Assembly: GCF_003074135.1 (NCBI RefSeq)
Contig: NZ_PPDK01000001.1
Location: forward strand, 310,001-374,000
DNA from: Euzebya tangerina
GTDB taxonomy: Bacteria > Actinomycetota > Nitriliruptoria > Euzebyales > Euzebyaceae
Length of the DNA stretch: 64,000 bases
Direction: 5' to 3'
Shown here: positions 24,994-51,110 of the stretch, piece by piece
How the letters are laid out: the number at the start of each line of letters is the position of its first letter
Numbering within the stretch: the stretch's first letter is position 1
The notes under the pieces: generated by a model
Seen by the model: only the letters and a program-made list of their open reading frames with translations
Database searches by the model: none
Told to the model about the DNA's origin: nothing
Made by a program: the position numbers and the translations under genes

Positions 24994-26916
24994 TCAGCCC
25001 GTCGGCTCGGTGCACCCGTCCCGGTTGGACGCCTCCACCAGGGCCTGCAGGGACTCCTCGGTCACGGCATCGGTCCCACCGATCGCGATGACGTCCAGGC
25101 CGAGCCCGCACGTCGCCGCATCGACATCGAAGGTCAGGATCTCACCCGTCTCACCCTCGAGCGGCAGGAACAAGCCGCCGAAGCCGGCGAACGTGGTGGC
25201 GGCCAACGCCCAGGCGTAAGCGCCGTCGTTGCGCAGGTTGATGGCGTAGGCCGCGACGAGGGGCGCGTCGCCGAGCTCCTCGGTGAAGATCCGCTCCTTC
25301 TCCTGCAGGATCGACACCGCCGTCTCGGTCCGGGTCAGGCCGCCCAGCCGGGTCACCGTGCCGCCACCGATGAGACCCTGGATCTGCCCGGCAACGCCGT
25401 CCGAGACGGCCAGTTCGCCGCCGACGACGTACACGGTGCTGGGCTGCAGGTCGATCAGGAAGTCAGCCGTCGGCTGGGACAGCTGATCGGTGTCCGTCAG
25501 GAGCACGGGCCAGGCGAACTCACCACTGAGCTGGCCGATGGTGAGCGCATCGGCCCAGTCGTCGGCGCGAGCCACGGCCACGGCGTCGAGGAAGGGCCGG
25601 CCATCATCGCCGAACTGGTCAAGAGCCGCCTGGGCGACCGCCGCGGCCGTTGCGGTCCGCTCAGGGCCGTCCAAGCGGATCGGTTCGAGGCCGGCCTCCC
25701 GCAGCTCAGCGTCCACCGTGGCGGGGATGGCGTCGACGCCGCCGAGGACGTAGACGGGCGTTGGCGGAGTGTCGGTGCCGGTGTCCGCCGGTGGCGCGCC
25801 GGCCACGATCGCGTCGATGGTGCTCTGGGCAAGCGCCCGATCCTGGTCGACGTAGAAGGTCGGGAAGGTGCCGCCCAGCGCCGTCCCGCCGAGGGCATCG
25901 GCGAACTCGTCGGAGCGCGCCAGCATCGCCGCCTCGAAGAAGAAGAACGAGGAGAGCTCCTCTGCGAGCGCCACCGAGTCGGTCGGCGTGTCCGGGGCGA
26001 AGCGGTCCCCCCGGGCGGGCGGCGGGGGCGGAGGCGGGTTGTCGGGGTCCTCGGCGCCGTCCCCACCAGCCAGGACGCCCGTGACCCAACCCAGGTACTG
26101 GTCCAGCTCGGTGTAGACGCCGGCAAACTCGACGCCGCAGAACTGCCCACCGAAGGAGACGATGCCGTACTGCTCCGCCGTCCCGGCGTTGTCGCGGATC
26201 AGCGGACCACCCGAGTCTCCGGCACAGGAGTCGTTCCCGGGGGCAGCGGGGTCGTCGGTCGGGTCCCCGGTGCAGAGGTGGCGGAGGGGGTCGATGAACT
26301 GCTCCGCACAGGCGGGTGCATCGTCGGCGACGAACGGCGTGGTCACCTTGAGCAGTTGCGGCGAGGCGACGGTTCCCTCGGCGTTGGTGGTGCCCCATCC
26401 GGCCACGACGAAGTCACCCGGGGCATCGCTGAGCGCCGCGTCGCTGGCCAATGGCTGCGCGGGCAGGTCGGTCGGCTGAGCCAACCGGAGCAGGGCCACG
26501 TCGTTGACGAAGGCGTTGGGGTCCCAGTTCGGGTGCCTGATGATCGCCTCGACATCGAGCAGGGGCGTCGGGGAGGTCTCGTAGTTGAGGGTCCCGGCCA
26601 TGACCTTCACGGTCTCTTCGGTGTCGAAGTCGAAGCAGTGGGCCGCTGAGAGCACGTAGGTCGGAGCCACCACCGTGCCGCCGCACCCCTGCTGGAACTC
26701 CCCGTCGACCTCGAAGAAGACCGCCACGATTGAGGGGAACTCGCCCTCGGTCGCCGGCTCACCGTTGATGATGGTGAACCCGTCGTCATCGTCCTGCCCC
26801 ACGTTCCAGGGCCGATCCGGTGGGCCGAGCGCCGTCCGCTGGGCTGCGCCTGCGGGGAGCGCGACAGCGATCAGCAGCGAGACTGCCGCGGCCGCGAGAA
26901 TTCGCCTGCGGGTCAT
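24994..26916 (-). CDS. Secreted trypsin-like serine protease with cell-wall-binding type 2 modules
   Basis: A 640-residue exported protein. It has an N-terminal signal peptide (RRRILAAAAVSLLIAVALPAGA) and a trypsin domain at ~residues 48-285 with catalytic His in SAAHCF, Asp in NDVALLRL and Ser in CAGDSGGPL. A Pro-rich linker (PPPPPPP) leads to a C-terminal half (~310-640) with cell-wall-binding repeat 2 features such as YVLGGVDAIP, VARADDWADALTIGQL, VYVVGGELAVSD and VIAIGGTDAVTE. These modules anchor proteins to the wall in Gram-positives. It probably degrades extracellular protein at the cell surface. It is divergent from the microcompartment operon across a 208-base regulatory region. Confidence 0.95.
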   Translation of the reverse strand: MTRRRILAAAAVSLLIAVALPAGAAQRTALGPPDRPWNVGQDDDDGFTIINGEPATEGEFPSIVAVFFEVDGEFQQGCGGTVVAPTYVLSAAHCFDFDTEETVKVMAGTLNYETSPTPLLDVEAIIRHPNWDPNAFVNDVALLRLAQPTDLPAQPLASDAALSDAPGDFVVAGWGTTNAEGTVASPQLLKVTTPFVADDAPACAEQFIDPLRHLCTGDPTDDPAAPGNDSCAGDSGGPLIRDNAGTAEQYGIVSFGGQFCGVEFAGVYTELDQYLGWVTGVLAGGDGAEDPDNPPPPPPPARGDRFAPDTPTDSVALAEELSSFFFFEAAMLARSDEFADALGGTALGGTFPTFYVDQDRALAQSTIDAIVAGAPPADTGTDTPPTPVYVLGGVDAIPATVDAELREAGLEPIRLDGPERTATAAAVAQAALDQFGDDGRPFLDAVAVARADDWADALTIGQLSGEFAWPVLLTDTDQLSQPTADFLIDLQPSTVYVVGGELAVSDGVAGQIQGLIGGGTVTRLGGLTRTETAVSILQEKERIFTEELGDAPLVAAYAINLRNDGAYAWALAATTFAGFGGLFLPLEGETGEILTFDVDAATCGLGLDVIAIGGTDAVTEESLQALVEASNRDGCTEPTG

Positions 26917-27019
26917 GATCTGGTCCTCCTCGTCGTGCCGGAGTCAGCCCGCCCCCCTTGTCATCGGCCGGGTGACCACGCCAGAGGTCTATCACGGACT
27001 GTCCGACAATCCCACCGTG

Positions 27020-27069
27020 GTGTTGTGGCCGTTTGGGTGTTGTAGCCGTTCGGGTGTGTGGCCGTCCGG
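27020..27069 (+). repeat. Three tandem ~17-bp direct repeats upstream of the microcompartment operon
   Basis: Units GTGTTGTGGCCGTTTGG (27020-27036), GTGTTGTAGCCGTTCGG (27037-27053) and GTGTGTGGCCGTCCGG (27054-27069) follow head to tail. They lie 55-105 bases before the dioxygenase ATG, in a pocket that is less GC-rich than its surroundings. Units 1 and 2 differ at two positions. They look like repeated binding sites for a regulator. The period is not a whole number of 10.5-bp helical turns. Confidence 0.7.
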
Positions 27070-27080
27070 CATAGCCGGAC
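27064..27080. promoter_or_regulatory. Perfect inverted repeat before the microcompartment operon
   Basis: GTCCGGC-ATA-GCCGGAC has 7-bp perfect arms with a 3-base centre. It overlaps the end of the third direct repeat and lies ~45 bases before the first ATG. It could be an operator or a leader hairpin; no T run follows, so a terminator for the minus-strand neighbour is less likely. Confidence 0.5.
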
Positions 27081-27124
27081 ACCTCTCGTGACGTTTGCCG
27101 CTTCTTGCCGTTTCCTGACGTGTG

Positions 27125-28093
27125 ATGTCCCACGTCTTCCGCCTTCCGGTGCTCGCTGGTCGCGTGGAGGCGGACGTGCCTGTCGCGGCCGACCACGGCC
27201 GTGGTGGCGACGGTCCCGGCATCGTCGCGGGATACCTCGCCCCACACCCGCCACACCTGGTGTACGCGGAGAACCCGCCACAGAACGAGCCGCGGTCCAC
27301 CGGCGGTTGGGAGACCCTCCGCTGGGCCTACGAGGAGGTCCGTCGGCGGATCCGGGAGGTGCATCGGCCGGACGTGATCATCGTCCACGCGCCGCACTGG
27401 ATCACGATGGTGGGCCACCACGTCAACTGCGTGCCGCACGTCCGAGGCCGCTCGGTCGAGCCCATCTTCCCCCACCTCTTCCGGTACGACTACGCCTTCG
27501 ACACCGACGTGGAGCTGGCGGAGGCCATCGCGGACACCGCTGCCGACATGGGCCTGGTCACCTCCAAGATGCGCGTGCCGGGCGTGCGGGTCGACTACGC
27601 CACCATCGGGGCACTCCATCTGTTGAACCCCGAGTGGGACATCCCCGTCGTCAGCCTCTCGGCCAACAACAACCCGTACTACTACGCCGCGGCCGGACTG
27701 GAGCAGATGGAGACGCTCGGCGAGGCCACTCGCATCGCGATCGAGCAGACCGGCCGCCGGGCGGTGCTGGCAGGGTCAAATTCGCTGTCGCACCTGCACT
27801 GGGACACCGAACCCGACCTGCCGGAGGACATGGCCGCCGAGCACGCCTGGTCCCACAAGCAGTACGCGGCGGACATGGTGCTGCTGGAAGCGATTCGGGC
27901 CGGCCGCACCGCCGACCTGCGGTCGCACCTGATCGACGAGCACATCGCAGCAACCGAGTCCGAGACCAAAGCGGGCAGCCTGTCGTGGCTGCTGTCGGCC
28001 ATGGATTGGCCCGAGGTTCCCGGCGACGTCCTGGCCTACGGCACGATCATCGGGACGGGCAACGCCGTGATCGAGTGGGAGCCCACGCCGTGA
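27125..28093 (+). CDS. 2-aminophenol 1,6-dioxygenase beta-like subunit (LigB-type extradiol dioxygenase)
   Basis: A 322-residue LigB-superfamily, iron(II)-dependent ring-cleaving subunit. It aligns by eye with the catalytic AmnB subunit: GYLAPHPPHLVYAENPPQNE, GGWETLRWAYE, HAPHWITMVGHH, SANNNPYYY and the IIGTGNAVIEW end. Likely iron ligands are His41, His91 and Glu280, at the same spacing as AmnB His13, His62 and Glu251. About 30 extra N-terminal residues precede the conserved start and end in a Gly/Asp-rich linker. The ATG at 27125 is used because G/C-rich third positions begin there, but a GTG at 27176 has a better site (GGAGG, 5 bases) and would leave 16 extra residues. It leads the microcompartment operon and overlaps the alpha-like gene (GTGA). 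The substrate (aminophenol or a catechol) is inferred. Confidence 0.88.
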   Translation: MSHVFRLPVLAGRVEADVPVAADHGRGGDGPGIVAGYLAPHPPHLVYAENPPQNEPRSTGGWETLRWAYEEVRRRIREVHRPDVIIVHAPHWITMVGHHVNCVPHVRGRSVEPIFPHLFRYDYAFDTDVELAEAIADTAADMGLVTSKMRVPGVRVDYATIGALHLLNPEWDIPVVSLSANNNPYYYAAAGLEQMETLGEATRIAIEQTGRRAVLAGSNSLSHLHWDTEPDLPEDMAAEHAWSHKQYAADMVLLEAIRAGRTADLRSHLIDEHIAATESETKAGSLSWLLSAMDWPEVPGDVLAYGTIIGTGNAVIEWEPTP

Positions 28094-28119
28094 CTGAGGG
28101 GGCCGTGACTGAGGGGCAC
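28090..28119 (+). repeat. 15-bp tandem duplication at the alpha-like subunit start
   Basis: GTGACTGAGGGGGCC is followed at once by GTGACTGAGGGGCAC. The duplication repeats the start codon and the next three codons, so translation could start at either copy. Confidence 0.8.
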
Positions 28120-28938
28120 ATCGTCGGGGCCGCATACCTGCCCGGGATGCCACACCTGCTGGCCGAGGGTTCGGATGCCTCCCCGGGGTGGGTCGAACTC
28201 CGCAGGGCCGTCGAAGAGGTCGGTCAGCGGTTGGCGGCAGCGAAGCCCGACGTCGTCCTGACCCTCTCCACGCAGTGGTTCACGGTGCTCGGCCACCAGG
28301 TCCAACTGGACCCGAACCCGACGGGCCACCACGTCGACGAGAACTGGTACGACTACGACTTCGGCCACCTCGACTACGACCTGCCCATGGACGTCGAGTT
28401 GGCCACCGCCTGGGCCGACGAGATCGACGACGCCGGACTTCAGGCTCGACGGACTCGCTATGAGGGGTTCCCCATCGACGTCGGCACCATCGTCGCGCGC
28501 AACTTGGCCGACCCCGACAGTCGGCTGCCAGGCGCCCAGGTGTCCTGCAATCTCTACGCACCCGCCGAGGTGATGGGCCAACTGGCCTCCCTCGGTGTCC
28601 GTGCCGCGGGGGCGCAGGGCAAGCGGGTGGCACTGGTCGTGGTCTCCGGCCTCTCCGCGGGGCTGATCCAGCAGTGGATCACGCCGGAACAGGATCACAT
28701 CCTGTCCCCGGACCACGACCGGTGGAACCGACGGGTGCTCGACCTCTTGGTGCAAGGTCGAGGATCAGACGTGATGGCCGTCCGGGAGGCGTGGGCTCGT
28801 GAAGCCGTCGCCGACTCCCAGGGTCGCGGGCTGGCCTTCCTGGCAGGGACCGGGATCCTCGACACACCGGCCGACCTGCTCGCCTACGCACCCGTGTGGG
28901 GCACCGGCGGCGCCGTCCTGCACTGGGGGCTGCCATGA
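28090..28938 (+). CDS. 2-aminophenol 1,6-dioxygenase alpha-like subunit (non-catalytic LigB paralog)
   Basis: A 282-residue LigB-fold protein matching AmnA, the structural partner of AmnB. Shared features are KPDVVLTLSTQWFTVLGHQ, HHVDENWYDYDFG, YEGFPIDVGTIVA, HDRWNRRVLDLL and a GTGGAVLHW end. The metal site is degraded: the first ligand His is replaced (YLPGMPHLL) and the second His position is Gln in STQW, so it should not bind iron itself. AmnA-type subunits are needed for a stable heterotetramer. The GTG start overlaps the beta stop; the first 15 bases are tandemly duplicated, giving a second possible GTG at 28105. Confidence 0.87.
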   Translation: MTEGAVTEGHIVGAAYLPGMPHLLAEGSDASPGWVELRRAVEEVGQRLAAAKPDVVLTLSTQWFTVLGHQVQLDPNPTGHHVDENWYDYDFGHLDYDLPMDVELATAWADEIDDAGLQARRTRYEGFPIDVGTIVARNLADPDSRLPGAQVSCNLYAPAEVMGQLASLGVRAAGAQGKRVALVVVSGLSAGLIQQWITPEQDHILSPDHDRWNRRVLDLLVQGRGSDVMAVREAWAREAVADSQGRGLAFLAGTGILDTPADLLAYAPVWGTGGAVLHWGLP

Positions 28939-28941
28939 CGG

Positions 28942-28975
28942 TCAGGTTCCCCAACGCCGAGGTCAGGTTCCCCAC
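28942..28975 (+). repeat. Two direct repeats in the dioxygenase-shell gene gap
   Basis: GGTCAGGTTCCCCA occurs at 28942 and again at 28960, an 18-base period. They fill the 75-base gap between the alpha-like dioxygenase gene and the first shell gene. The second copy extends to GGTCAGGTTCCCCAC, which also occurs once inside ureF (from 9939). Confidence 0.6.
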
Positions 28976-29013
28976 CACGTGTTCCACCACCCGACCAGTA
29001 GACAGGACCAGCC

Positions 29014-29307
29014 ATGAGCAACCAGTCCGTCGGATTCCTCGAAGCTGAGGGGTTCGTCCCGATCTTCGACGCCGTCGACGCCATGACCAAGGCCACCGAC
29101 GTCACCGTCACCGGCGTCATGCGCCTGGGCGGCGGCATCGTCTCCGTCGCGCTTCGCAGCGATCTGGCCACGGTCGAGGAGGCCGTCGAGATCGGTGTCC
29201 AGACCGCTCGCGCGGTCGGCGGAGGAACGGTCAAGTCGATCATCTTCGCCTCACCCGCCGACCCCGTCGCCGCGATCGCGGCCAACACGTCGATCATCGA
29301 CGGATAA
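29014..29307 (+). CDS. Bacterial microcompartment shell protein, BMC-H (1)
   Basis: A 97-residue single BMC domain (Pfam 00936 type). It matches the fold across its length: SVGFLEAEGFVPIFDAVDAM, then DVTVTGVMRLGGGIVSVALRSD, then EIGVQTARAVGG. Hexamers of such proteins tile the flat faces of a shell. The pore loop is RLGGGI (residues 37-42) rather than the common KxGSGL, so the central pore is lined by three glycines and should be fairly open. The C-terminus is short, without an extension. An AGGA site precedes the ATG. It is one of three shell genes in a row. Confidence 0.95.
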   Translation: MSNQSVGFLEAEGFVPIFDAVDAMTKATDVTVTGVMRLGGGIVSVALRSDLATVEEAVEIGVQTARAVGGGTVKSIIFASPADPVAAIAANTSIIDG

Positions 29308-29316
29308 GGAGCACCC

Positions 29317-29664
29317 ATGTCTGCCAGTCCAGCAACCGAACAACGCACCGTCTACGCGGGCGCCATCGGCCTGATCGAGACCCGGGGCATCGTGCCGCTC
29401 ACCGCCGGCATCGAGGCGATGATGAAGACCGCCGACGTCACCTGCATCGGCGTCGAGCGGGTCTCCAGCGGCTACTTCGCCGCCGCCGTGCAGGGCGAGG
29501 TCGCCGCCGTCCGCCAGGCACTGGCCGCCGGCTCGGCCGCCGTCGAGCAGTACGGCGACCTCCGATCGAGCCAGATCTATCCCAAACCACATGACGACGC
29601 GGCAGGGCTCCTGGACAATGGCAGCCGGGAACTCCTGGACGCCGGTGAGGCCAGCGGCTCATGA
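29317..29664 (+). CDS. Bacterial microcompartment shell protein, BMC-H (2)
   Basis: A 115-residue BMC-domain protein, with AGAIGLIETRGIVPLTAGIEAM, DVTCIGVERVSSGYFAAAVQG and IYPKPHDD as recognisable landmarks. The pore loop is RVSSGY (residues 48-53), which places Ser and Tyr at the pore and differs from the Gly pore of its neighbour. This implies two kinds of pore in one shell. A ~20-residue polar C-terminal tail follows the domain. A strong AAGGAG site lies 6 bases before the ATG. The stop overlaps the vertex-protein start (ATGA), so the two are translationally coupled. Confidence 0.95.
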   Translation: MSASPATEQRTVYAGAIGLIETRGIVPLTAGIEAMMKTADVTCIGVERVSSGYFAAAVQGEVAAVRQALAAGSAAVEQYGDLRSSQIYPKPHDDAAGLLDNGSRELLDAGEASGS

Positions 29665-29918
29665 TCCTGGGCCGAGTGACCGGACGAGTCTGGGCCGACC
29701 GGCAGCTCGGTCAGCTCGACGGTCGTCGGATGGTGGCCATCGAGTCCGCCGATGGGGGACAACTCGTGGCGACGGACACCATCGACGTGGCGACCGGGGA
29801 CCTGGTGCTGGTGGTGACCGATGACGCCGCGATCACGCTCGCTGGGTTCGCGGTCGACGCGCTGGTCGTGGCCCGGGTTGCCGACACCGACGACGACGTC
29901 CGCAGACCGACGACATGA
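29661..29918 (+). CDS. Microcompartment vertex protein, EutN/CcmL family (BMC-P)
   Basis: An 85-residue beta-barrel protein of the EutN/CcmL/BMC-P family. It has MILGRVTGRVWADRQLGQLDG, then VAIESADGG, then DTIDVATGDLVLVVTDDAA and a final AVDALVVARV strand. Pentamers close the twelve vertices of the shell, so its presence means a closed polyhedral compartment is likely and not just sheets. It overlaps genes on both sides by 4 bases, coupling shell synthesis to the phosphotransferase subunit encoded next. There is no BMC-T gene in the window, so the shell appears minimal. Confidence 0.93.
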   Translation: MILGRVTGRVWADRQLGQLDGRRMVAIESADGGQLVATDTIDVATGDLVLVVTDDAAITLAGFAVDALVVARVADTDDDVRRPTT

Positions 29919-31027
29919 CCGGGCCCACAACGGGAGACGCTGGCATCATCCGCTGGTTGGATGAGGCCACCTCCGCCCCATCCGCGGAGGAGGTGGGCGG
30001 GAAGGGTGCGGGCCTGGCATTCCTCGCGGGCTGTGCGACCGACACCGGGGCCACCGTGCCACGTGCCTTCGCGGTGACGACCGCCGCGTTCGAGACCGCG
30101 GTGGGCCCCGACGTCCTCGGCCGGATCGCGGACCTCGTCGCTGAGGCCGACGCCTCGCCCAGTGGCCTCGAGGCGGCGGCAGCCCAGGCCCGTGCGGTCA
30201 TCACCGGCCTCGATCTGCCGGCTCACATCGAGACGGCGATCCGAGCGGCGTACGCCGCCCTGGGTGAGAGCGACGGTGACCAGCCCCGCGAACCGGTACC
30301 GGTCGCCGTCCGGTCCAGCGCCGCCGGCGAGGACTCCGCCGAGGCGAGCTTCGCGGGCGAGCACGACTCCTTCCTCTGGGTCAGTGGTGCTGACGCAGTG
30401 GTGAGCCGGGTCCGTGACTGCTGGGCCTCGCTGTGGACATCCCGGGCCGTGGCCTATCGGGCCAACTCGGTCCAGCCGGTCACGCCGATGGGGGTGGTGG
30501 TCCAGCACATGGTCCCAGCCACCGCAGCCGGGGTCTTCATGACCTTGAACCCGGTCAACGGCGACCGCTCCAAGATCGTGGTCGAAGCCGTCTGGGGGCT
30601 CGGTGAGCCACTGGTCAGCGGCACCGCTGATCCGGACCGCTGGGTGGTGGACAAGATCACCGGCGATGTCGCGACCAGCAGCATCGCGACCAAGCCGGAG
30701 CGGCTGGTCCAGGACCTGACCACCGGTCAGGGCACGGTCAGCGAAGCGGTCGAGGAGTCGGCGCGAACCCGGCCGTGCCTGACATCGGACCAGATCAGCC
30801 AGCTCGTCGCCGTGGCCCGCGTGATCGAGCGCGAGGCCGGCACCCCACAAGACGGTGAGTTCGCCGTCGCGCCCGGCCCCGACGGAACCCCGAGCATCCA
30901 CCTGCTGCAGGCCCGACCTGAGACGATCTGGGCGAACAAGCCCCGCGAGAGCATCACCGGCGGCAAGAGCGCCCTCGGCTCGATCGTGGACACCCTCTCC
31001 AGAGGCAGCGGCTGGACCACGACCTGA
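29915..31027 (+). CDS. PEP-synthase N-domain-like ATP-binding subunit (phenylphosphate synthase protein 2-like), shell locus
   Basis: A 370-residue (~40 kDa) protein equal to the N-terminal PEP/pyruvate-binding (ATP-grasp) domain of PEP synthase, standing alone. Motifs are EVGGKGAGLA (Lys30), VAVRSSAAGEDSAEASFAGE (Arg133), VFMTLNPVNGD, VWGLGEPLVSGTADPDRW and the LLQARPET end. In phenylphosphate synthase a 40-kDa subunit like this uses ATP to phosphorylate the His of a 70-kDa partner, making AMP and phosphate. That partner type is the next gene. In canonical enzymes all domains are in one chain with a TIM barrel, which is absent here. It is coupled to the vertex protein by ATGA, which suggests it belongs to the compartment. 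The acceptor substrate is inferred to be a phenolic. Confidence 0.85.
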   Translation: MTGPTTGDAGIIRWLDEATSAPSAEEVGGKGAGLAFLAGCATDTGATVPRAFAVTTAAFETAVGPDVLGRIADLVAEADASPSGLEAAAAQARAVITGLDLPAHIETAIRAAYAALGESDGDQPREPVPVAVRSSAAGEDSAEASFAGEHDSFLWVSGADAVVSRVRDCWASLWTSRAVAYRANSVQPVTPMGVVVQHMVPATAAGVFMTLNPVNGDRSKIVVEAVWGLGEPLVSGTADPDRWVVDKITGDVATSSIATKPERLVQDLTTGQGTVSEAVEESARTRPCLTSDQISQLVAVARVIEREAGTPQDGEFAVAPGPDGTPSIHLLQARPETIWANKPRESITGGKSALGSIVDTLSRGSGWTTT

Positions 31028-31083
31028 GACCGTCACCCCGAACACCAGCCTTCCCCGAGCATCAGCCCACGACAGGAGCACCA

Positions 31084-32907
31084 ATGGCCCAGCGATTCCC
31101 CGACCCCTTCGACGTCCCCACCCCCGACGGCGCGGACGGGTGGGAGGACATGTTCAGCTACTACCACCTCTTCGGCGAGGAGCGCCGCGAAGCCGACACC
31201 CAGACCTTCTGGTTCCAGGACCGCCTCCACCATCCTGGCGCGCTGTATCCCTACGACGAGATCCAGTGCGAGTGCTGGTGGCAGGCGCTCGGTGCCTTCA
31301 ACACCCGGATCTTCTCGATGCCGCCAGCCTTCGGCGTCGACCAGCGGGTCCTGAACGGCTACCTCTACGTCAGCCCGGTGCCCGCGCCACCTGACCAGAT
31401 CGAGGCTCGCGCCGAGGAGTTCGGCAAGCGCGCCTCCCACTACTACGAGAACTGGGACGAGATCTACGAGGAGTGGAAGACCAAGGTCACCGATCGTCTG
31501 GAGACCATCCGCGGGCTGGACTTCTCGGTGCTGCCCGAGCTCGAGGACGAGAGCGTCGTCACCTCCCACCGCGGGACGTCCAGCGGTTACCAGATGATCG
31601 AGAACTTCTCGACGCTCATCACCACGATGTACGAGACCTACCAGTTCCACTTCGAGCTGCTCAACATCGGGTACGCCGCCTACCTGACCTTCTTCGGCTT
31701 CTGCAAAGAGGCCTTTCCCGACATCCCCGACCAGACGATCAGCCGCATGGTCGGTGGGCTGCACGTCGACCTGTACCGGCCCGACGACGAGCTGAAGCGA
31801 CTGGCCAAGGAGGCCGTCCGGCTGAACCTGACCGCCGTGCTCGCCGACCACGCCGGAGATCCCGAGGCGCTGTTCAGCGCCTTGAACGACTCGGAGGCCG
31901 GGCAGGAGTGGGCTGCCGACTACCGCCGGACGGAGGACCCGTGGTTCCTGTTCAACACCGACCCCGGCCACCCCGGCGGGTACCACACCTACCCGACCTG
32001 GCAGGACGACCCGCGACTGCCACTGTCCGCCATCCGGGACTACGTCACTCGGATCGAGGCCGGCGACGACCTCGATCGACCCACCGAGCACGTGCTCGCG
32101 GAGCGCGACCGGATCACCGGGGAGTACCGCGAGCTGCTGGCGGCCGACGACCAGGGGGCGTTCGACGAGATGGTGGCGCTGGCCCGCAAGGTGTTCGTCT
32201 ACATCGAGGAGCACGTCCTCTACATCGAGCACTGGATGTGGGCGACGTTCTGGGCCAAGTCCAAGGAGGTCGGCGCCACGCTGGCCGCCATGGGCGGTCT
32301 GGACGAGGCCGAGGACATGTTCTACCTGCGCCGGACCGAGGTCGCCGACCTGATCTACGACGTGGTGGCGGCCTGGTCGGTCGGCGCTGCGTCGAGGGGC
32401 GCAGCGTACTGGCGGCCGATCGTCGCCCGACGCCGCGAGATCTGGCAGGCCCTCGACGCCTACGACGCCCCTGAGGCACTCGGACCACCCCCGGCCGAGG
32501 TGACCGAGCCGTTCACGGTCATGCTCTGGGGGATCACCACCGACACGGTGGCCGAGTGGCTGGCCGACGACGAGGGCGACGAGCAGGTGCTGCGCGGGAT
32601 CGCGGGCTCACCCGGCGTGGTGGAAGGCCGGGCCAGGGTCGTCAAGCGGGTCGAGGAGCTCGACGCCGTGGAGGAGGGCGAGGTCCTGATCTGCCCCGCC
32701 ACCTCCCCCTCGTGGTCGACGATCTTCTCCCAGGTCTCCGCCACCGTGTCCGACGTCGGCGGCATCATGAGCCACGCGGCCATCGTGTGCCGCGAGTACG
32801 GACTGCCGGCCGTGGTGGGGACCGGGAAGGCGGTGTCGACCATCCAGACCGGTCAGCTGGTCCGGGTCGATGGCGACAACGGGACGGTGACGGTGTTGGA
32901 TGGCTGA
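31084..32907 (+). CDS. Phospho-histidine transferase subunit (phenylphosphate synthase protein 1-like), shell locus
   Basis: A 607-residue (~68 kDa) protein. The last ~95 residues are a PEP-utilising mobile (swivelling) domain, with GIAGSPGVVEGRARVV, CPATSPSW and the phospho-His motif GGIMSHAAIVCREYG, in which the acceptor is His564. Phenylphosphate synthase protein 1 of Thauera uses His569, a near match in position and size. The first ~480 residues have no PEP synthase counterpart; they are rich in Trp, Tyr and Phe (e.g. FFGFCKEAFP, EEHVLYIEHWMW) and presumably bind the acceptor. The PEP/pyruvate TIM barrel is missing, so pyruvate is not the acceptor. An AGGAG site fixes the start. A 40% or so similar copy is encoded at 51.1-52.9 kb (by-eye estimate). 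Confidence 0.85.
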   Translation: MAQRFPDPFDVPTPDGADGWEDMFSYYHLFGEERREADTQTFWFQDRLHHPGALYPYDEIQCECWWQALGAFNTRIFSMPPAFGVDQRVLNGYLYVSPVPAPPDQIEARAEEFGKRASHYYENWDEIYEEWKTKVTDRLETIRGLDFSVLPELEDESVVTSHRGTSSGYQMIENFSTLITTMYETYQFHFELLNIGYAAYLTFFGFCKEAFPDIPDQTISRMVGGLHVDLYRPDDELKRLAKEAVRLNLTAVLADHAGDPEALFSALNDSEAGQEWAADYRRTEDPWFLFNTDPGHPGGYHTYPTWQDDPRLPLSAIRDYVTRIEAGDDLDRPTEHVLAERDRITGEYRELLAADDQGAFDEMVALARKVFVYIEEHVLYIEHWMWATFWAKSKEVGATLAAMGGLDEAEDMFYLRRTEVADLIYDVVAAWSVGAASRGAAYWRPIVARRREIWQALDAYDAPEALGPPPAEVTEPFTVMLWGITTDTVAEWLADDEGDEQVLRGIAGSPGVVEGRARVVKRVEELDAVEEGEVLICPATSPSWSTIFSQVSATVSDVGGIMSHAAIVCREYGLPAVVGTGKAVSTIQTGQLVRVDGDNGTVTVLDG

Positions 32908-33676
32908 TCCCGGCTGTGCCTGTGCGGTCGACGCCGGTGCGGGTGCGCCGGCGCGCCGCCCGGAGCACTGGGAGACCGGTCGGCTCAAGGGCGTGCGTGA
33001 TCGTGCGCGGGCCCGTCGCCGCGGGACCCCGGCGACGCCGCCGGTGCTGCTACTCGACATGGGTGGTGTGGTGATCCCGACCCTGTTCGAGAGCGTGGCG
33101 GTGCCGGGGTTCCCCGGCGGCCCGTTCGAGGCGGAGGAGGCCTACGCCACCGTCGAGCGCGGCGAGCGCCAGGAGCGCGAGTACTGGGCCGATCTGACGG
33201 TCAGACGGCCGGACCTGGACCTCGGCGAGCTGTGGCGAACCTGCTCGCGGGTGCGGCCACAGCTCGCGGGTGTTCTCCCACGGCTGGCGTCCGTGGCCCG
33301 GGTGGTGGCCTTCACCAACGACATGGCCCACTGGTTCGGGGACGAGTGGCCGACCGCGTTTCCTGAGCTGGCCTGGTTCGACCGGGTGCTCGAGGCCGCC
33401 AAGATGGGCGAGCTGAAGCCGGCCGTGTCGTCGTTCCGGCGAGCGGCGGAGGCCATCGGCGTCACGCCGAAGGAGTGCCTCTTCGTCGATGACCTGCAGT
33501 CCAACCTGGACGGCGCTCGCCGTGCGGGGATGCAGACGCTGCTGTTCGACGTGACGGATCCAGCAGGCTCGATCGCGGAGGTCTGTCGGCAGGTGGGGAC
33601 CTCTCCGCCTCAGCCAACGGGTGCCCACCGCCCGTCGGCCTCGCGGGTCTTCGCCGTCCCACGAGCCCTCCTCTGA
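32900..33676 (+). CDS. HAD-superfamily hydrolase, shell locus
   Basis: A 258-residue protein of HAD subfamily IA. Motif I is LLDMGGVVI (nucleophile Asp53; the usual second Asp is Gly), motif II AFTNDMAH, motif III Lys in GELKPAVSSF and motif IV FVDDLQSN. The Gly at the second position is seen in some HAD-IA phosphatases and dehalogenase-like proteins, so activity cannot be excluded. It overlaps the transferase gene by 8 bases. A phosphatase here could remove a phosphate installed by the upstream pair, as CreD does in p-cresol breakdown. The first ~47 residues (Arg/Ala-rich) lack similarity; an internal GTG (33044) may be the true start. Confidence 0.8.
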   Translation: MADPGCACAVDAGAGAPARRPEHWETGRLKGVRDRARARRRGTPATPPVLLLDMGGVVIPTLFESVAVPGFPGGPFEAEEAYATVERGERQEREYWADLTVRRPDLDLGELWRTCSRVRPQLAGVLPRLASVARVVAFTNDMAHWFGDEWPTAFPELAWFDRVLEAAKMGELKPAVSSFRRAAEAIGVTPKECLFVDDLQSNLDGARRAGMQTLLFDVTDPAGSIAEVCRQVGTSPPQPTGAHRPSASRVFAVPRALL

Positions 33677-33689
33677 CCCCGCCATTCGA

Positions 33690-33699
33690 CACGATCGTG
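33690..33699. promoter_or_regulatory. CACGATCGTG palindrome before the RidA gene
   Basis: A perfect 10-bp palindrome in the 93-base gap between the HAD and RidA genes. CGATCGTG occurs again at 33730-33737. They may be paired half-sites of a regulator; the evidence is weak. Confidence 0.25.
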
Positions 33700-33769
33700 C
33701 AGATTGCTCCACCTATGTGGGTTAGCCCCCGATCGTGCCCCCTCCCCCACCGCCACGAGAGGACCCACG

Positions 33770-34246
33770 ATGAGCGCTGAAGCCCGGCTGAGAGAGCTCG
33801 GCATCCACCTTCCGGACGCCAGGCCCGCCGCCGGCAACTACATACCGTTCCGCCGGCACGGCGACCTGCTGTTCCTCGCCGGGCAGGGCGCCGACGGTCA
33901 CGTCGGCCGGGTCGGCGACACGATGACCCTGGAGGAGGGGCAGGCAGCGGCCCGGGCCGCCGGACTGAACCTGCTCACCCAGACCCGCGCCGCACTCGGG
34001 ACCCTCGATGCGGTGGAGGAGGTGGTCCGAGTCCACGGCTGGGTCAGCTGTGCCGACGGCTTCACCCAGATCCCGGCCGTCGTCAACGGCGCGAGCGACC
34101 TCTTCGTCGAGGTGTTCGGTGACGCGGGCCGGCACGCCCGCACCGCCGTTGGCGTCTGGATGCTCCCCCTCGGGTTCGCGGTGGAGGTCGAGATGATCGT
34201 CGCCGTCCGGGACGGCGCAGGCGGCGCGTACCGGCACGCGCTGTGA
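33770..34246 (+). CDS. RidA/YjgF-family protein (possible 2-aminomuconate deaminase)
   Basis: A 158-residue Rid-superfamily protein: RELGIHLPDARPAAGNYIPF, FLAGQGADG, AARAAGLNLLTQTRAALG, VNGASDLFVEVFGDAGRHARTAVGV and a VEVEMIVAV end. It belongs to the longer LGIxLP subgroup and not the classic enamine deaminase RidA. The 2-aminomuconate deaminases of aminophenol pathways are Rid-family proteins, so following an AmnBA-like pair it could release ammonia from 2-aminomuconate; this is inference. A GAGAGGA site precedes the ATG. A 93-base gap separates it from the HAD gene, so it may be the operon's last member or have its own promoter. Confidence 0.8.
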   Translation: MSAEARLRELGIHLPDARPAAGNYIPFRRHGDLLFLAGQGADGHVGRVGDTMTLEEGQAAARAAGLNLLTQTRAALGTLDAVEEVVRVHGWVSCADGFTQIPAVVNGASDLFVEVFGDAGRHARTAVGVWMLPLGFAVEVEMIVAVRDGAGGAYRHAL

Positions 34247-34298: not shown

Positions 34299-35390
34299 AT
34301 GGCCCGAGCTGTGACCCGGCGCCGGTCCGACCGGCAGGGCGACGACCGGCGGGTGAACCGCACCCTCGGCATCCTGTTGATCCTGGCGGTGGCCACCGGA
34401 CTGACGGCCAACACCCAAGGCACCGAGGTCGGGCGATGGGTGGTGATCGGCCACGGCGTCGTGGGCTGTGCCCTGGTCGTCCTGGCTCGTGCGAAGACCC
34501 GCATCGCTGGTCGCTCGTTGCGGCGGCCACGGTGGCGCCGCGGGTCGTGGCTGTCGCTGACCCTGGCCGCCCTGGTGGTCGTCACGCTGGCCAGCGGCTT
34601 TGCCAGCGCCGCAGGGTTCACCGGGCGACTGCTGGGCCTGACGATCATGCAGATCCACATCGGCGCGGCCGCGCTGGCGACCGTGCCGGCCATCCTGCAC
34701 TACCGGAGCCGTCCGACCGGCCACGCGGCGCCGGGCCCGACAGCGACCCCGGCCACCGGTTTCAAGGGCACCTCCACGTCCCAGTCCACCGACCGGCGTG
34801 ACCTGCTCCGCACTGGCGCGCTGACCGCGTTGGCGGCGACCGGCTGGTTCGGCTGGGAGCGGGCCCTGGAGGCGACCGGCGCGCCCGGCGGCGAACGCCG
34901 CTGGACCGGGTCGCACGAGGTGTCCTCCGGCGACCCGGACGGGCTGCCCGTGACGCAGTGGCTCGACGACCCCGTCCAGCGGATCGACGCCGCCGCGTGG
35001 CGGCTGACGGTCGGTGAGGTGGAGTGGTCCCTGGACGACCTGCGTGCGCTGCCGCAGGAGGAGATCACCGCCGTTCTCGACTGCACCAGCCTGTGGTGGT
35101 CGGAACAGGCCTGGTCCGGTGTGCGGCTCAGTCGGATCGTCCCGCCGGGAGAGGCCCGGAGCATCTGGGTGACGTCCACCTCCGGCTACGGGCTTCGCTT
35201 CCCGGTCCGCGATCTGGATCAGCTCTGGTTGGCGCTGGACCTTGGTGGCGAACCGCTCACGGCCGGCCACGGCTTCCCAGCACGCATCGTTGCGCCCGGT
35301 CGGCGCGGCTTCTGGTGGGTGAAGTGGGTCGAGCGGATCGAACGGTCGCCGCTGCCCTGGTGGGTGCAGCCGCCCTACCCCCTCACCTGA
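34299..35390 (+). CDS. Membrane-anchored molybdopterin-dependent oxidoreductase with cytochrome-b-like N-domain
   Basis: A 363-residue fusion. Residues ~22-135 form four hydrophobic helices with His52 (VIGHGVVG), His120 (MQIHIGAAA) and His134, positioned like haem-b ligands. A twin-arginine-like segment, DRRDLLRTGALTALAATGWFG (~165-185), then leads into a sulfite-oxidase-fold domain. Its Mo-coordinating cysteine is Cys262 in AVLDCTSLWW, and the C-terminus has GFPARIVAPGRRGFWWVKWVERIE. This resembles YedY (MsrP) and YedZ joined in one chain, without the usual two-gene split. It likely faces the outside and takes electrons from the quinone pool. Substrate unknown. It ends 8 bases into the convergent UvrA-like gene. 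Confidence 0.8.
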   Translation: MARAVTRRRSDRQGDDRRVNRTLGILLILAVATGLTANTQGTEVGRWVVIGHGVVGCALVVLARAKTRIAGRSLRRPRWRRGSWLSLTLAALVVVTLASGFASAAGFTGRLLGLTIMQIHIGAAALATVPAILHYRSRPTGHAAPGPTATPATGFKGTSTSQSTDRRDLLRTGALTALAATGWFGWERALEATGAPGGERRWTGSHEVSSGDPDGLPVTQWLDDPVQRIDAAAWRLTVGEVEWSLDDLRALPQEEITAVLDCTSLWWSEQAWSGVRLSRIVPPGEARSIWVTSTSGYGLRFPVRDLDQLWLALDLGGEPLTAGHGFPARIVAPGRRGFWWVKWVERIERSPLPWWVQPPYPLT

Positions 35391-39153: not shown

Positions 39154-39743
39154 CCAGTGATCGCTACGGCGCTCCGGATACCCGAACGCGAATCCTCACA
39201 GCCGCGTGGGACGCACTCCTCGACCAGGGACCCCACGTCACGTTGGCCGACGTTGCCGCGCGAGCCTCGGTGTCCCGGCAAGCGCTCTACCTCCACTTCG
39301 GCGATCGAGCCGGCCTGCTCGTCGCGGTCGTCAACCACATGGATGAGTCCCTCGACCTGGCGGAGTCACTCGCCCGCGTCCAAGGTGCGCCCGACGGGGC
39401 TGCCCTCATCGAGGCTGCAGTCCGTCTCAACACCACCTTCTGGGCCCAGGTCCATCCGGTGGCCCAGGTCCTGGAAGCGGGCCGGCACGACGACGAGGCG
39501 CTGGGCAGCGCCTGGCGCGACCGGATGCGGTTCCGGCAGGCCGCCTTCCGCGAGATGGTCGGGGCGCTGGCTGATCGTGGGGAACTGTCCGAGGAATGGA
39601 CCGTCGACGATGCGGCCGCGACCCTGTATGCCGTCGCGCACTACGACACCTGGCGTGAGCTCATCATCGAGCTGGGCTGGACGGACGATCGCTACGTCGA
39701 GTCGATGGCCCGCCTGCTTCGGCGTTCGCTGCTCAGCGGGTGA
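39147..39743 (+). CDS. TetR-family transcriptional regulator
   Basis: A 198-residue repressor. The N-terminal helix-turn-helix is TRTRILTAAWDALLDQGPHVTLADVAARASVSRQALYLHF (~residues 10-50, quoted in full only to mark its extent loosely: key parts are LADVAARASVSRQALYLHF). The C-terminal ligand-binding domain includes RLNTTFWAQVHPVAQVLEAG. It is divergent from the alpha/beta hydrolase gene and shares a 60-base promoter region with two palindromes. It probably represses the hydrolase/DUF1330 pair and itself. Its stop overlaps the convergent IclR gene by 11 bases. Confidence 0.9.
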   Translation: MSTSDRYGAPDTRTRILTAAWDALLDQGPHVTLADVAARASVSRQALYLHFGDRAGLLVAVVNHMDESLDLAESLARVQGAPDGAALIEAAVRLNTTFWAQVHPVAQVLEAGRHDDEALGSAWRDRMRFRQAAFREMVGALADRGELSEEWTVDDAAATLYAVAHYDTWRELIIELGWTDDRYVESMARLLRRSLLSG

Positions 39744-40515
39744 TCGGCTGCTTGGTGAGGACCTCCGAGACGGCCTGTGCGGCCGTTCGGACGCGGTCAG
39801 CGGCTCGTGTCGCGTCGCCGTCGGAGAAGTTCTCGTTGGGGCCCGCAAGCGAGATCCCGCCGACCACACGGCCGGCAGCCGAGATGGGGGCTGCAACGGA
39901 CCGGCGGCCCCGTTGGAACCCGGTGTTGATGACGAAGCCGCGCTCCTTCGCCTTCGTCAGGTCCGCTCGCAGGCCGGCCGCATCGACCGGCCGGAGGCCC
40001 TCCTGCGCGACCACGTCTGCGACGCGGGCGACGGCTTCCTCGGGGGCGAGCAGCGAGAGCGCGGCCTTGCCGCACCCGCTGACGTGCGCCGGAGCACGAA
40101 GGCCGACCCGGTTGCGCATGGCTGGGAGCGGCGGTCGCGCGGCCCGGTCGAGGTAGACGATCCAGCCGCCGACCAGCTGGCCCAGGTGCGCCTCCAACCC
40201 CGGTCGGTGCGGGAGCGTGTCGAGGATTCCCTCGGCGGCTGCCACCATGCCGGTCCGGTCGATGACCTGACCGCCGAGCCCGACCAGGGCCGGCCCCAAG
40301 CGGTACCCGCCACCTTCGACCAGCTCCAGGAGGTCGACGGCACAGAGGCTGGTGCAGATCCCGTGGGCGGTTGACCGTGGCAGGCCACTTCGCTCGGCGA
40401 TCTGGCGAACGCTCATCTGTGGGACGGCAGCCGAGAAGAGCGAGAGCACCATCCCCGCCTTCTCGACGGCTGCGACGCCGGCCATCATCTGCCCCCAGCA
40501 CGTGACATGGTGCAT
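39733..40515 (-). CDS. IclR-family transcriptional regulator
   Basis: A 260-residue regulator. The winged helix lies at ~residues 12-75 (VEKAGMVLSLFSAAVPQMSV, IAERSGLPRSTAHGICTSL), and the IclR effector domain follows with HVSGCGKAALSLL, GFVINTGFQRGRRSVAAPI and GGISLAGP. IclR proteins often control aromatic and purine catabolism and bind small acids. Which locus it controls is not shown, but the two aromatic operons on either side are candidates. The ATG at 40515 is used; internal ATGs at 40488 and 40485 are alternatives. A perfect palindrome lies 26 bases upstream. Confidence 0.88.
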   Translation of the reverse strand: MHHVTCWGQMMAGVAAVEKAGMVLSLFSAAVPQMSVRQIAERSGLPRSTAHGICTSLCAVDLLELVEGGGYRLGPALVGLGGQVIDRTGMVAAAEGILDTLPHRPGLEAHLGQLVGGWIVYLDRAARPPLPAMRNRVGLRAPAHVSGCGKAALSLLAPEEAVARVADVVAQEGLRPVDAAGLRADLTKAKERGFVINTGFQRGRRSVAAPISAAGRVVGGISLAGPNENFSDGDATRAADRVRTAAQAVSEVLTKQPITR

Positions 40516-43672: not shown

Positions 43673-44724
43673 GCCTCCACATCCCCACCGAGCCGCCCCA
43701 GCCCGGGCGCGCCGGCGTAGGCCGGGAGGGCGGCCTGACCCCCGAGATGGCAGTACATGACCCGGCTGCCCGGTGCGATCTCCCCCGACCTGATCATGCC
43801 GATCAGGCCGGCAAGCGACTTCCCCTCGTAGACGGGGTCGGTCAGCATGCCCTCCGTCCGCGCGGCCAGATGGATGGCCTCGATCGTCTGGGCGTCCGGC
43901 ACGCCGTAGGCCGGACCCTCGTAGCCGACCACGACGGTGATCTCGTCATCGCGCAGCGGTCGGGCGACACCGATGCGTTCGGCGGTCTGGGTGGCGATCC
44001 GGGTGACCTGGTCGACCGTCTTGTCCAACGTGGCGGAGGCGTCCACGCCGATCACGCGCCGCGGGCGTGGCAGTGAGTCGACGTCCTCCAGCGCGAACCC
44101 CGCGATCATGCCGGCGTGGCTCGAGCCCGTCACCGTGCACACGATGATGTGGTCGAAGAACACCTCGTGCTGTGCCTCCTGCTCGGCCAGCTCGACGGCC
44201 CAGTTGGCGAACCCCAACCCGCCGAGCGGATGATCGGACGCTCCGGCCGGAATGGCGTAGGGCGTCCCACCTGCCTCCTCCACCGACGTCAGCGCCGCCT
44301 TCCAGCTGTCCCGAATGCCGATGTCGAAGCCGGCCGGATCGATCCGGATGTCGCCGCCCATGATCCGCGTCAGCTGGATGTTGCCGACCGTGTCGTAGTT
44401 CATGTCGGGCCAGTCGACCCAGCCCTCCTGCACGGTCACACAGCCCAGGCCGAGATGCCGGGCCACGCCGGTCACCTGGCGGGTGTGGTTGGACTGGATC
44501 CCCCCGATCGACACGAGCGTGTCGCACCCCTGGGCGAGGGCGTCGGCCACCAGGTACTCGAGCTTGCGGACCTTGTTGCCGCCGAAGGCGATGCCCGAGT
44601 TGCAGTCCTCCCGCTTGGCCCAGATCTCGACCTCACCGCCGAGCGCCTCGGACAGTCGCGGGAGGGGGTGGACCGGTGAGGGCCCGAAGAGCAGTGGGTG
44701 ACGTGGGTGATCGGCGAGGGTCAT
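43669..44724 (-). CDS. acdS: 1-aminocyclopropane-1-carboxylate deaminase
   Basis: A 351-residue PLP enzyme matching AcdS closely. It has [37 protein letters not shown] with the PLP Lys exactly at residue 51, [41 protein letters not shown] and [12 protein letters not shown]. The Glu in YEGKS is the residue expected in ACC deaminase and differs in D-cysteine desulfhydrases. The enzyme opens ACC, the plant ethylene precursor, to 2-oxobutanoate and ammonia. It could therefore serve nitrogen scavenging near plants or algae. The gene starts on the opposite strand 76 bases from the transketolase-like gene. Confidence 0.93.
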
Positions 44725-44800
44725 GGCCTCATCATCGCGCAGAGAACTCGGGGCTGCGCAGCAGTCGACGGCCGCCCGCCGGATCCGCGATGATGCCGCC

Positions 44801-47195: not shown

Positions 47196-48623
47196 TCAGG
47201 GCTCGATGATCACGGCCTTCGGCTCGGTGAAGAACTCGCGGCTGTAGGCGCCGCCCTCCCGCCCGATGCCGGAGTCGCCATACCCGCCGAACGGGGCTCG
47301 CAGGTCGCGAACGAAGAAGCAGTTGATCCACACGCTGCCGGCCCGCAGGAGGCCAGCGACCCGGTGCGCGCGTCGGAGGTTCTCGGTGAACAGCATCGCG
47401 TTCAGGCCGTAGGGGGTGTCGTTGGCGAGTGCGATGCCCTCCTCCTCGGTGTCGAAGGGCTGGATGACGACCACCGGGCCGAAGATCTCCTCGCACGCCA
47501 CTCGGCCTGCGGGGTCGATGTCGGTGATGACCGTCGGTCTGACCGTCCACCCCGCCCCCACACCGCCGGTCAGGATCTTCCCGCCCTCCTCGGGGACGAG
47601 GTCCAGGTAGGAGGAGACCTTGCCGAAGTGCTCCTCGCTGGCCAGCGGGCCGATCTGCGTCGCCTCGTCGGACGGGTCGCCGACCACCATGGCCTCGGCC
47701 GCTTCGACGAAGCGGGCGACGAACTCCTCGTACACGGCGCGCTGGACGTACAGCCGCGATCCGGCCAGGCAGACCTGCCCGGCATTGGTGTAGATGGCCT
47801 TGATCGACCACTCGACGGCCGCCTCGAGGTCACAGTCCTCGAAGACGAGGTTGGCACCCTTCCCGCCGAGCTCGAAGCTGACCGGGGTGAGGTTGCGCAT
47901 CGCGGCCTGACCGATCGCGCGACCGGTGTTCGACTCGCCGGTGAACGTGATGCGGTCGACACGCCGGTCGGAGGTCAGCCACTCTCCGACGTCATCGGGA
48001 CCGAAGCCGAGGACGACGTTGAGGACACCTGGTGGCAGGCCGGCCTCCTCGGCGATCTCGGCGAACCGGGCGGCGGATGCGGGGGTCTGCTCGGCCGGCT
48101 TCAACACGACGGTGTTGCCGAACGCGAGCGCGGGGGCGATCTTCCACGAGGCCAGCATCAGCGGGAAGTTCCACGGTGAGATCGCGACTGTCACCCCGGC
48201 CGGGTCATGGGTGGTGTAGGCGTGGTGACCGGTCGTCATCGGCAGGCGCTCATCGGTGGCCATGGCGGCGTAGTCGGCGAAGAAGCGCAGGTTGTCAGCA
48301 ACGCGCGGGATGTCCTTGGCGCGAGCGGCGGCGATCGGCTTGCCCATGTCACGGGAGTCGAGTTGGGCGAGCTCCTCGAGGTGCCCCGTGACGGCATCGG
48401 CGACGGCGTGGAGGATCTCCTGCCGCTCCCCGGGGGACATGCGCGGCCACGGTCCATCGTCGAACGCGCGGCGAGCGGCGGCGATGGCGTCATCGACGTC
48501 GGACCGGGTGGCGTGGGCGACGGTGGCCCAGACGGCCTGGGAGTGCGGGTTGACGGTCTCGAAGGTCCCGCCGTCCTCGGCGGGCCGGGACTGACCGTCG
48601 ATGTGGAGCTGGATGGTGTCCAT
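47196..48623 (-). CDS. 2-hydroxymuconic/2-aminomuconic semialdehyde dehydrogenase-like
   Basis: A 475-residue NAD-dependent aldehyde dehydrogenase. Catalytic residues are Glu251 (SFELGGKGA) and Cys285 (NAGQVCLAG). The end, INCFFVRDLRAPFGG, then SGIGREGG and EFFTEPK, is diagnostic of the 2-hydroxymuconic and 2-aminomuconic semialdehyde dehydrogenases (DmpC, XylG, AmnC, HpaE). It oxidises the semialdehyde made by extradiol ring cleavage. It is the last gene of the second aromatic operon. The substrate matches both the catechol 2,3-dioxygenases in this operon and the AmnBA-like enzyme at 27-29 kb. Confidence 0.9.
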   Translation of the reverse strand: MDTIQLHIDGQSRPAEDGGTFETVNPHSQAVWATVAHATRSDVDDAIAAARRAFDDGPWPRMSPGERQEILHAVADAVTGHLEELAQLDSRDMGKPIAAARAKDIPRVADNLRFFADYAAMATDERLPMTTGHHAYTTHDPAGVTVAISPWNFPLMLASWKIAPALAFGNTVVLKPAEQTPASAARFAEIAEEAGLPPGVLNVVLGFGPDDVGEWLTSDRRVDRITFTGESNTGRAIGQAAMRNLTPVSFELGGKGANLVFEDCDLEAAVEWSIKAIYTNAGQVCLAGSRLYVQRAVYEEFVARFVEAAEAMVVGDPSDEATQIGPLASEEHFGKVSSYLDLVPEEGGKILTGGVGAGWTVRPTVITDIDPAGRVACEEIFGPVVVIQPFDTEEEGIALANDTPYGLNAMLFTENLRRAHRVAGLLRAGSVWINCFFVRDLRAPFGGYGDSGIGREGGAYSREFFTEPKAVIIEP

Positions 48624-51104: not shown

Positions 51105-51110
51105 GGCCTG

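Follow-up and report, generated by a model that had tools for sequence, protein, structure and literature searches.

Two groups of described systems are closest to the locus reported here. The first is the ARO type of bacterial microcompartment (BMC), described by Sutter et al. 2021 (PMC8217296) and Doron et al. 2023 (PMC10470539); in the latter work no enzyme of the ARO upper pathway was reported except HyuAB, and the disordered, non-helical first 29 residues of AmnB, the dioxygenase subunit from Micromonospora rosaria, were proposed as an encapsulation determinant. The second comprises the two-component phenolic kinases HpeHI, CreHI and PpsAB (PMC12167813, PMC9618137), among which HpeHI and HpeD are a published precedent for a kinase followed by a HAD phosphatase (PMC9618137). 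We focused our attention on a window of 64,000 nucleotides from Euzebya tangerina (contig NZ_PPDK01000001.1, positions 310,001 to 374,000), in which an operon joins the shell and dioxygenase genes of an ARO microcompartment to a predicted two-component phenolic dikinase and to a putative HAD phosphatase that ends in a short motif resembling the beginning of the dioxygenase. Which genes are present and that their linkage is conserved, the subfamily of the kinase, the fold of the HAD protein and the occurrence of the motif on two or three unrelated proteins can be read from the sequence, and the evidence for each is given below.

The nine genes of the operon (AmnB, AmnA, BMC-H, BMC-H, BMC-P, PPDK_N, PEP-utilizers, HAD and RidA) all lie on the plus strand:

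27125..28093, plus strand: beta subunit of the ARO dioxygenase (AmnB-like, catalytic LigB fold), with an N-terminal extension from MSHVFRLP as putative encapsulation tag; Pfam LigB, best match in the Protein Data Bank (PDB) 7txy_B.
28090..28938, plus strand: alpha subunit of the ARO dioxygenase, AmnA-like; Pfam LigB, 55-62% identity to most other ARO AmnA proteins and 36% in locus L048.
29014..29307, plus strand: BMC-H1, the H_lipstickred counterpart, without the P(R/K)PH motif; Pfam BMC, 56 bits, 62-75% to other ARO BMC-H1 proteins.
29317..29664, plus strand: BMC-H2, the H_cerulean counterpart by alignment, with YPKPH; Pfam BMC, 72 bits.
29661..29918, plus strand: BMC-P vertex protein (EutN/CcmL); Pfam EutN_CcmL, 43.7 bits.
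29915..31027, plus strand: predicted ATP-grasp small subunit of a two-component phenolic dikinase (HpeI/CreI/PpsB type), 370 amino acids; Pfam PPDK_N, E 9e-80, best PDB match 9goj.
31084..32907, plus strand: predicted large subunit of the same dikinase (substrate-binding and swivel phospho-His, HpeH/CreH/PpsA type), 607 amino acids; PRK08296 family, PEP-utilizers domain, SDVGGIMSHAA motif, fold and ARO-specific clade.
32900..33676, plus strand: predicted HAD phosphatase (soluble epoxide hydrolase N-domain/YihX type), with an Arg-rich N-terminal extension and C-terminal SRVFAVP; Pfam/NCBIfam HAD-IA, sequence and fold.
33770..34246, plus strand: Rid-family protein, candidate 2-aminomuconate deaminase; Pfam YjgF_endoribonc, 53-62% to RidA proteins encoded at other ARO loci.

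This arrangement is far beyond chance. Domain searches recovered all the genes listed in an earlier note made from the letters of this DNA, and the 4-bp overlaps that it had placed at 28090, 29661 and 29915 are exact (AmnB/AmnA, 28090-28093; BMC-H2/BMC-P, 29661-29664; BMC-P/PPDK_N, 29915-29918), with a further overlap between the PEP-utilizers (PEP-mobile) and HAD genes (32900-32907). Its operon start at 27020 needed correction, as this position is intergenic and the first gene most likely begins at ATG 27125 (a GTG lies at 27122); the most likely start of RidA is ATG 33770, not the first TTG at 33704. The microcompartment with aminophenol-type ring cleavage that the note had described was recovered too, but as the published ARO microcompartment, and hence this half of the locus is already known.

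As in the described ARO loci, the shell has one BMC-P and two BMC-H proteins of the ARO types, in which YPKPH is present in BMC-H2 and not in BMC-H1. The whole genome holds only two BMC-H domains, both single-domain and both at the operon, where BMC-P adjoins them, so that no other shell locus was found in the organism. The dioxygenase is of the AmnBA type and carries the ARO-specific N-terminal extension: the best PDB match of AmnB is 7txy_B, the beta subunit of the M. rosaria ARO dioxygenase (E 3.7e-149), which aligns from residue 1 and covers the extension of ~30-35 residues, whereas non-BMC aminophenol dioxygenases align from residue 33 only. In addition, candidates for two further ARO genes were found outside the operon:

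47196..48623, minus strand: aldehyde dehydrogenase, candidate ARO 2-aminomuconate-semialdehyde dehydrogenase; 44% to the semialdehyde dehydrogenase of the Ensifer amn cluster and ~45-67% to the aldehyde dehydrogenases beside other ARO loci.
39733..40515, minus strand: IclR protein that may be the ARO regulator, moved away from the operon; 47-58% to IclR proteins whose genes stand divergent to AmnB at other ARO loci.

The candidate dehydrogenase lies ~13 kb from the operon on the opposite strand and the candidate regulator ~12 kb from AmnB, while a lower meta-cleavage satellite (acetaldehyde dehydrogenase, DmpG aldolase and three hydratase/decarboxylase-family genes) is situated ~15-20 kb past the window end. 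Because Rid genes adjoin amnBA in proteobacterial clusters, namely those of Ensifer and Pseudomonas veronii, the Rid protein is a candidate 2-aminomuconate deaminase, or AmnD. Its similarity to the Rid proteins of the proteobacterial amn clusters is weak, and its solved relatives are uncharacterised or named by family only; nevertheless, we consider a role in the deaminase step of the 2-aminophenol pathway more likely than general detoxification. What sets the present operon apart from the described ARO loci is the addition of the two-component phenolic kinase and the tagged HAD phosphatase.

The kinase pair is predicted to be a two-component phenolic dikinase of the HpeHI/CreHI/PpsAB type, with which it shares the separation of the ATP-grasp subunit from the swivel/substrate subunit. 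PPDK_N was found alone in the small subunit and PEP-utilizers alone in the large one, with no barrel binding phosphoenolpyruvate (PEP) or pyruvate, and the best solved relative of the small subunit, 9goj, is a stand-alone ATP-grasp chain of 387 amino acids. The phospho-His motif (T/S)xxGGxMSH is shared with this type as well: the swivel motif of the large subunit reads SDVGGIMSHAA, with Met at the position of the regulatory Thr, and SD(V/I)GG(I/V)MSH is kept in all ARO kinases with a complete C-terminus. According to PMC12167813, a T/SxxGGxxxH motif in which Met replaces the regulatory Thr marks phenolic kinases, and Ser precedes the His in CreH and in phenylphosphate synthase. Moreover, the fold predicted for the large subunit, of moderate confidence (mean pLDDT 71), matched rifampin phosphotransferase (RPH) over 487-577 columns and PPDK over ~120 columns in Foldseek searches, the same pattern as reported for HpeH, and in both Foldseek and phmmer homology to RPH ran along the large subunit while that to PEP synthase/PPDK was confined to the swivel domain. 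The likeness to RPH thus extends over most of the length of the large subunit, although RPH consists of one chain and has an antibiotic as its substrate, unlike the split kinase described here.

In a tree of 46 kinase sequences, the 23 ARO kinases and one kinase from a non-ARO BMC locus (L135) stood apart from all others (SH-aLRT 100), among them a phenylphosphate-carboxylase-linked kinase, P450-linked Rhodococcus kinases, a biotin-carboxylase-linked kinase and the second kinase of the window. The Azoarcus kinase has a CBS protein and ppcB/D/A as neighbours, none of which is present in the ARO operon here. The pair differs from HpeHI, CreHI and PpsAB in forming a separate clade and in being linked to a shell, without a carboxylase or P450 partner in the operon, and it resembles Hpe in the pairing of a kinase with a HAD phosphatase. 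Two narrower identities were rejected. PEP synthase or PPDK was ruled out by domain content, motif and fold, and the grouping with PEP synthases that the earlier note had named as a refutation was not found. Phenylphosphate synthase, to which the same note had matched the two subunits, was ruled out as membership by the separate clade and the missing CBS protein and carboxylase neighbours, and is retained as a mechanism.

At the level of sequence, the linkage of the kinase gene to the ARO locus is strong. A close kinase, defined by at least 61% identity, was present in 18 of the 19 Pseudonocardiaceae genomes with an ARO dioxygenase, compared with 1 of the 373 without (n = 392; Fisher p 7e-29, a value that overstates independence, as ARO loci are related by descent and many of the 23 come from one family). 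All five ARO genomes outside the Pseudonocardiaceae set contain it too, giving 23 of 24 genomes with an ARO dioxygenase and at least three actinobacterial lineages, and HAD homologues scoring above 150 bits are present in each of the 19 Pseudonocardiaceae genomes that hold the kinase, all other matches being at or below ~75 bits. As a single ARO genome was found among 299 of the class of L048, and one in an even draw of the class of Kibdelosporangium, the survey rests mostly on Pseudonocardiaceae.

A contig scan for ARO BMC-H, which used two narrow peptide patterns and returned no Micromonospora, yielded eight named loci, with matches in Pseudonocardia, Kibdelosporangium, Amycolatopsis and actinobacterial metagenome-assembled genomes (MAGs; two titled Thermoleophilaceae and Solirubrobacter). 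On all contigs of sufficient length the kinase is part of the shell operon or adjoins it, except in Amycolatopsis jejuensis (L134), and in a MAG from another family of the host's order it stands at the start of another contig with the downstream order unchanged. The order AmnB-AmnA-BMCH1-BMCH2-BMCP-PPDKN-PEPmob-HAD recurs in the Pseudonocardiaceae loci, in the Thermoleophilaceae and Solirubrobacter MAGs and in the MAG of the host's order; the exceptions, among the Pseudonocardiaceae loci, are L051 (P. spinosispora), where the kinase has moved to the other side of IclR, and L053 and L134, where it is absent. The one Pseudonocardiaceae genome with the close kinase but without the ARO dioxygenase is G783 (L135), in which the same kinase and HAD accompany the BMC-H genes of a non-ARO BMC locus. 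Overall, shell and kinase genes stand together almost everywhere, far from never sharing a conserved neighbourhood, and the coupling of a microcompartment to a split arene phosphotransferase that the earlier note proposed is supported.

In the locus of G783 (L135; G783:C506:4000-23000), three BMC-H genes, the ARO-clade kinase and the tagged HAD were seen, with no dioxygenase and no BMC-P, together with TrpA, two TrpB-like PALP proteins, ornithine cyclodeaminase, DUF1611, an enolase-superfamily gene and an adenylation-domain-like gene. The locus may represent a BMC type not yet described, with a link to a natural-product pathway.

By sequence and by fold, the nearest relatives of the HAD protein are YihX and the phosphatase domain of soluble epoxide hydrolase, and the catalytic residues of motifs I to IV (D53, T139, K173 and D197/D198) are invariant. 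Its model consists of a well-folded core (45-236) with disordered tails (1-34 and 241-258), a short Arg-rich helix at the N-terminal side (29-38) and a disordered C-terminal tag, so that both tails, which were aligned over 23 loci, lie outside the folded core. All ARO loci have an N-terminal tail rich in Arg, which in many of them reads D-P-x-x-W-x-x-R-R-R-R-x-(L/V)-R-R. At the C-terminus, (R/S/T)-V-(F/W/Y)-x-(x)-P is present in 19 of 22 loci, whereas shuffling of the tails gave an expectation of 0.47, and it is present in none of 187 other windows along the same proteins.

A similar motif opens the ARO dioxygenase, since the N-terminus of AmnB is M-(S/A/G)-(R/H/Y)-V-F-(H/R/Q)-(L/V) in nearly all complete rows of the alignment and the crystallised M. 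rosaria protein begins MSRVFRVP. A third, unrelated protein may carry it in the kinase-free locus of Amycolatopsis jejuensis (L134), where a metallo-beta-lactamase-fold protein beside the shell genes (10602-11807) begins MPKVFHAPVGD and AmnB begins MSRVFHPSPGD. Among the open reading frames (ORFs) of the ARO and L135 loci, 41 of the 44 terminal matches are AmnB, HAD or the metallo-beta-lactamase-fold protein, while control loci gave 2 terminal matches in 1071 ORFs. The tag was also sought at the termini of the kinase subunits, AmnA, aldehyde dehydrogenase and RidA, and was not found there; BMC-P shows RVW in its first strand, which we attribute to the EutN/CcmL fold and not to a tag. Altogether, the R-V-F/W-x-P motif is probably an ARO sorting tag. 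Like the canonical encapsulation peptides of the PduP/PduD type, it belongs to a short terminal extension outside the folded domain of the cargo; it differs from them in being a short R-V-F/W-x-P motif instead of an amphipathic helix of 15-20 residues, and in the HAD phosphatase an Arg-rich N-terminal extension is added.

Based on these results, the operon may encode a kinase-equipped variant of the ARO microcompartment, with cytosolic phosphorylation of a phenol and lumenal unmasking by HAD beside the dioxygenase, a reading to which we give about an even chance of being correct. The two-component dikinase (29915-32907) would phosphorylate a phenolic hydroxyl in the cytosol at the expense of ATP, by the phospho-His swivel mechanism of HpeHI, CreHI and PpsAB, the substrate being 2-aminophenol, catechol or an immediate precursor. 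The resulting aryl phosphate, as an anion, would neither leak from the cell nor auto-oxidise, and would be attracted to the pore and enter the shell. There, the HAD phosphatase (32900-33676), kept in the lumen by the R-V-F-x-P tag in common with the dioxygenase and also held inside the shell by its basic extension, would free the phenol; the dioxygenase (27125-28938) would then open the ring, and aldehyde dehydrogenase and the Rid protein would oxidise and deaminate the semialdehyde. We infer which substrate is used, how the steps divide between cytosol and lumen, what the tag does and in which direction the flux runs. The aryl phosphate channelling that the earlier note had put forward would be part of this scheme, and the tag on HAD makes it more specific and testable.

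Several published observations bear on the proposal. Phosphorylation of phenol has been suggested to prevent diffusive loss or to detoxify (PMC9618137). In published modelling the concave face of H_lipstickred was positive and its convex face negative, and the convex face is lumenal (PMC11157265), which fits both the entry of an anion and the binding of the basic HAD extension inside. A bolder version, in which the ARO organelle would be the first microcompartment fed a phosphate-masked substrate, with a shell that admits the anion and both cargo enzymes sorted by a new minimal R-V-F/W-x-P tag, is more tentative, and we consider it somewhat less likely than not.

Some of our results and those of others weigh against the kinase-equipped variant. 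The first Asp of HAD motif I is kept but the motif reads D-x-G-G-V, lacking the second Asp of the canonical DxD. YihX likewise has DxG. In L048 neither HAD nor AmnB bears the tag, nor does HAD in L047, and the 23 loci, many of them from one family, are not independent. Furthermore, phosphorylating and then dephosphorylating one molecule costs ATP with no net chemistry, so that the molecule masked could plausibly also be another precursor, further upstream. Finally, the published Micromonospora ARO loci were described without the kinase and with HyuAB instead, which means that the kinase may be dispensable for some ARO microcompartments.

The cost in ATP leads to the main rival, in which the phosphate would serve upstream chemistry rather than delivery to the shell: the kinase would act on a phenolic precursor, an oxygenase, carboxylase or decarboxylase would work on the aryl phosphate, and HAD or a histidine phosphatase would unmask the product to 2-aminophenol or catechol. 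The Hpe pathway works in this way and CreHI likewise starts 4-cresol catabolism, while no ARO upper-pathway enzymes were found by the published authors. Within the window, a second kinase pair is accompanied by a histidine-phosphatase-family gene, a Rieske oxygenase and extradiol dioxygenases (49.7-57.2 kb), and histidine phosphatase genes adjoin or lie near many of the Pseudonocardiaceae ARO kinases. Nevertheless, no third enzyme is conserved between the kinase and HAD in the operon across lineages, and it is HAD, not a modifying enzyme, that bears the tag of the dioxygenase; we consider this explanation rather unlikely, even if the strongest of the alternatives.

It is also conceivable that the cassette is passed on horizontally as one unit, the kinase and HAD having no functional tie to the microcompartment and the likeness of the tags being coincidental. 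In favour of this, the distribution is patchy (19 of the 392 Pseudonocardiaceae genomes and, in the class of L048, 1 of 299), but the linkage is kept at 61-74% protein identity, after the rearrangement in P. spinosispora (L051) and without the dioxygenase in G783 (L135), which argues for function, and the tag is borne by non-homologous proteins; we regard mere passenger linkage as improbable. Least probable of all is that the kinase and HAD, both lumenal or shell-associated, act on the ring-cleavage product (an enol, e.g., 2-hydroxymuconate) or recycle a dead-end product instead of acting on the aromatic compound, as the phosphorylation of an enol by PEP synthase relatives and the placement of all genes in one operon might suggest, given that the large subunit is of the phenolic/RPH type without a PEP-binding domain, the kinase subunits have no tag, and the module is also present without a ring-cleavage enzyme in L135.

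Regarding precedence, no paper with both 'phenylphosphate synthase' and 'microcompartment' was found among those searched, a search for papers on ARO microcompartments since 2022 gave only Doron et al. 2023, and the terms sought for the kinase and the HAD phosphatase do not occur in the main texts of Sutter et al. 2021 and Doron et al. 2023, whose supplementary tables may draw the kinase unnamed. The conserved kinase-phosphatase module and the shared tag therefore appear to be undescribed in the main texts, and their priority is not certain. Published ARO work leaves the upper pathway, and encapsulation without a classical peptide, as questions, and the locus described here and its relatives offer direct candidates for both, namely a kinase-phosphatase pair conserved in nearly every ARO locus found and a short motif common to non-homologous cargo enzymes. 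Should phosphate masking prove right, it would represent a new way to bring a toxic substrate into a bacterial organelle, and the tag would provide a small new tool to direct cargo into simple shells of three proteins.

Further observations concern the surroundings of the operon. Between the upstream protease gene and AmnB there are two 17-bp direct repeats (88% alike; 27013-27052) and an imperfect 14-bp inverted repeat (27000-27081), which may be parts of an operator; a scan for promoters and terminators gave nothing above chance. The protease gene (24994-26916, minus strand) encodes a putative secreted trypsin-like protein with apparent cell-wall-binding repeats, as judged by eye from the translation. 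The Rid gene is followed directly by a molybdopterin oxidoreductase gene (34299-35390) with an N-terminal membrane-like region, and a transketolase/pyruvate dehydrogenase E1-like protein of 817 amino acids is encoded at 44723-47176 (plus strand), beside a PALP enzyme and the candidate aldehyde dehydrogenase.

Elsewhere in the window, the second, divergent kinase pair is located on the minus strand (PEP-mobile, 51111-52919; ATP-grasp, 52996-54165), together with the histidine-phosphatase-family gene (51.1-55.3 kb). The cluster around it (49674-58677, minus strand) includes two glyoxalase-type extradiol dioxygenases, a Rieske (LigXa/VanA-like) oxygenase and an alpha/beta hydrolase, and looks like a separate aryl-phosphate catabolic cluster. 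Lastly, the segment 4524-20285, with genes for uricase, DUF6986, urease alpha, UreF, a BPD_transp_2 permease and neighbouring transporter-like genes, is likely a purine/urate utilisation region.

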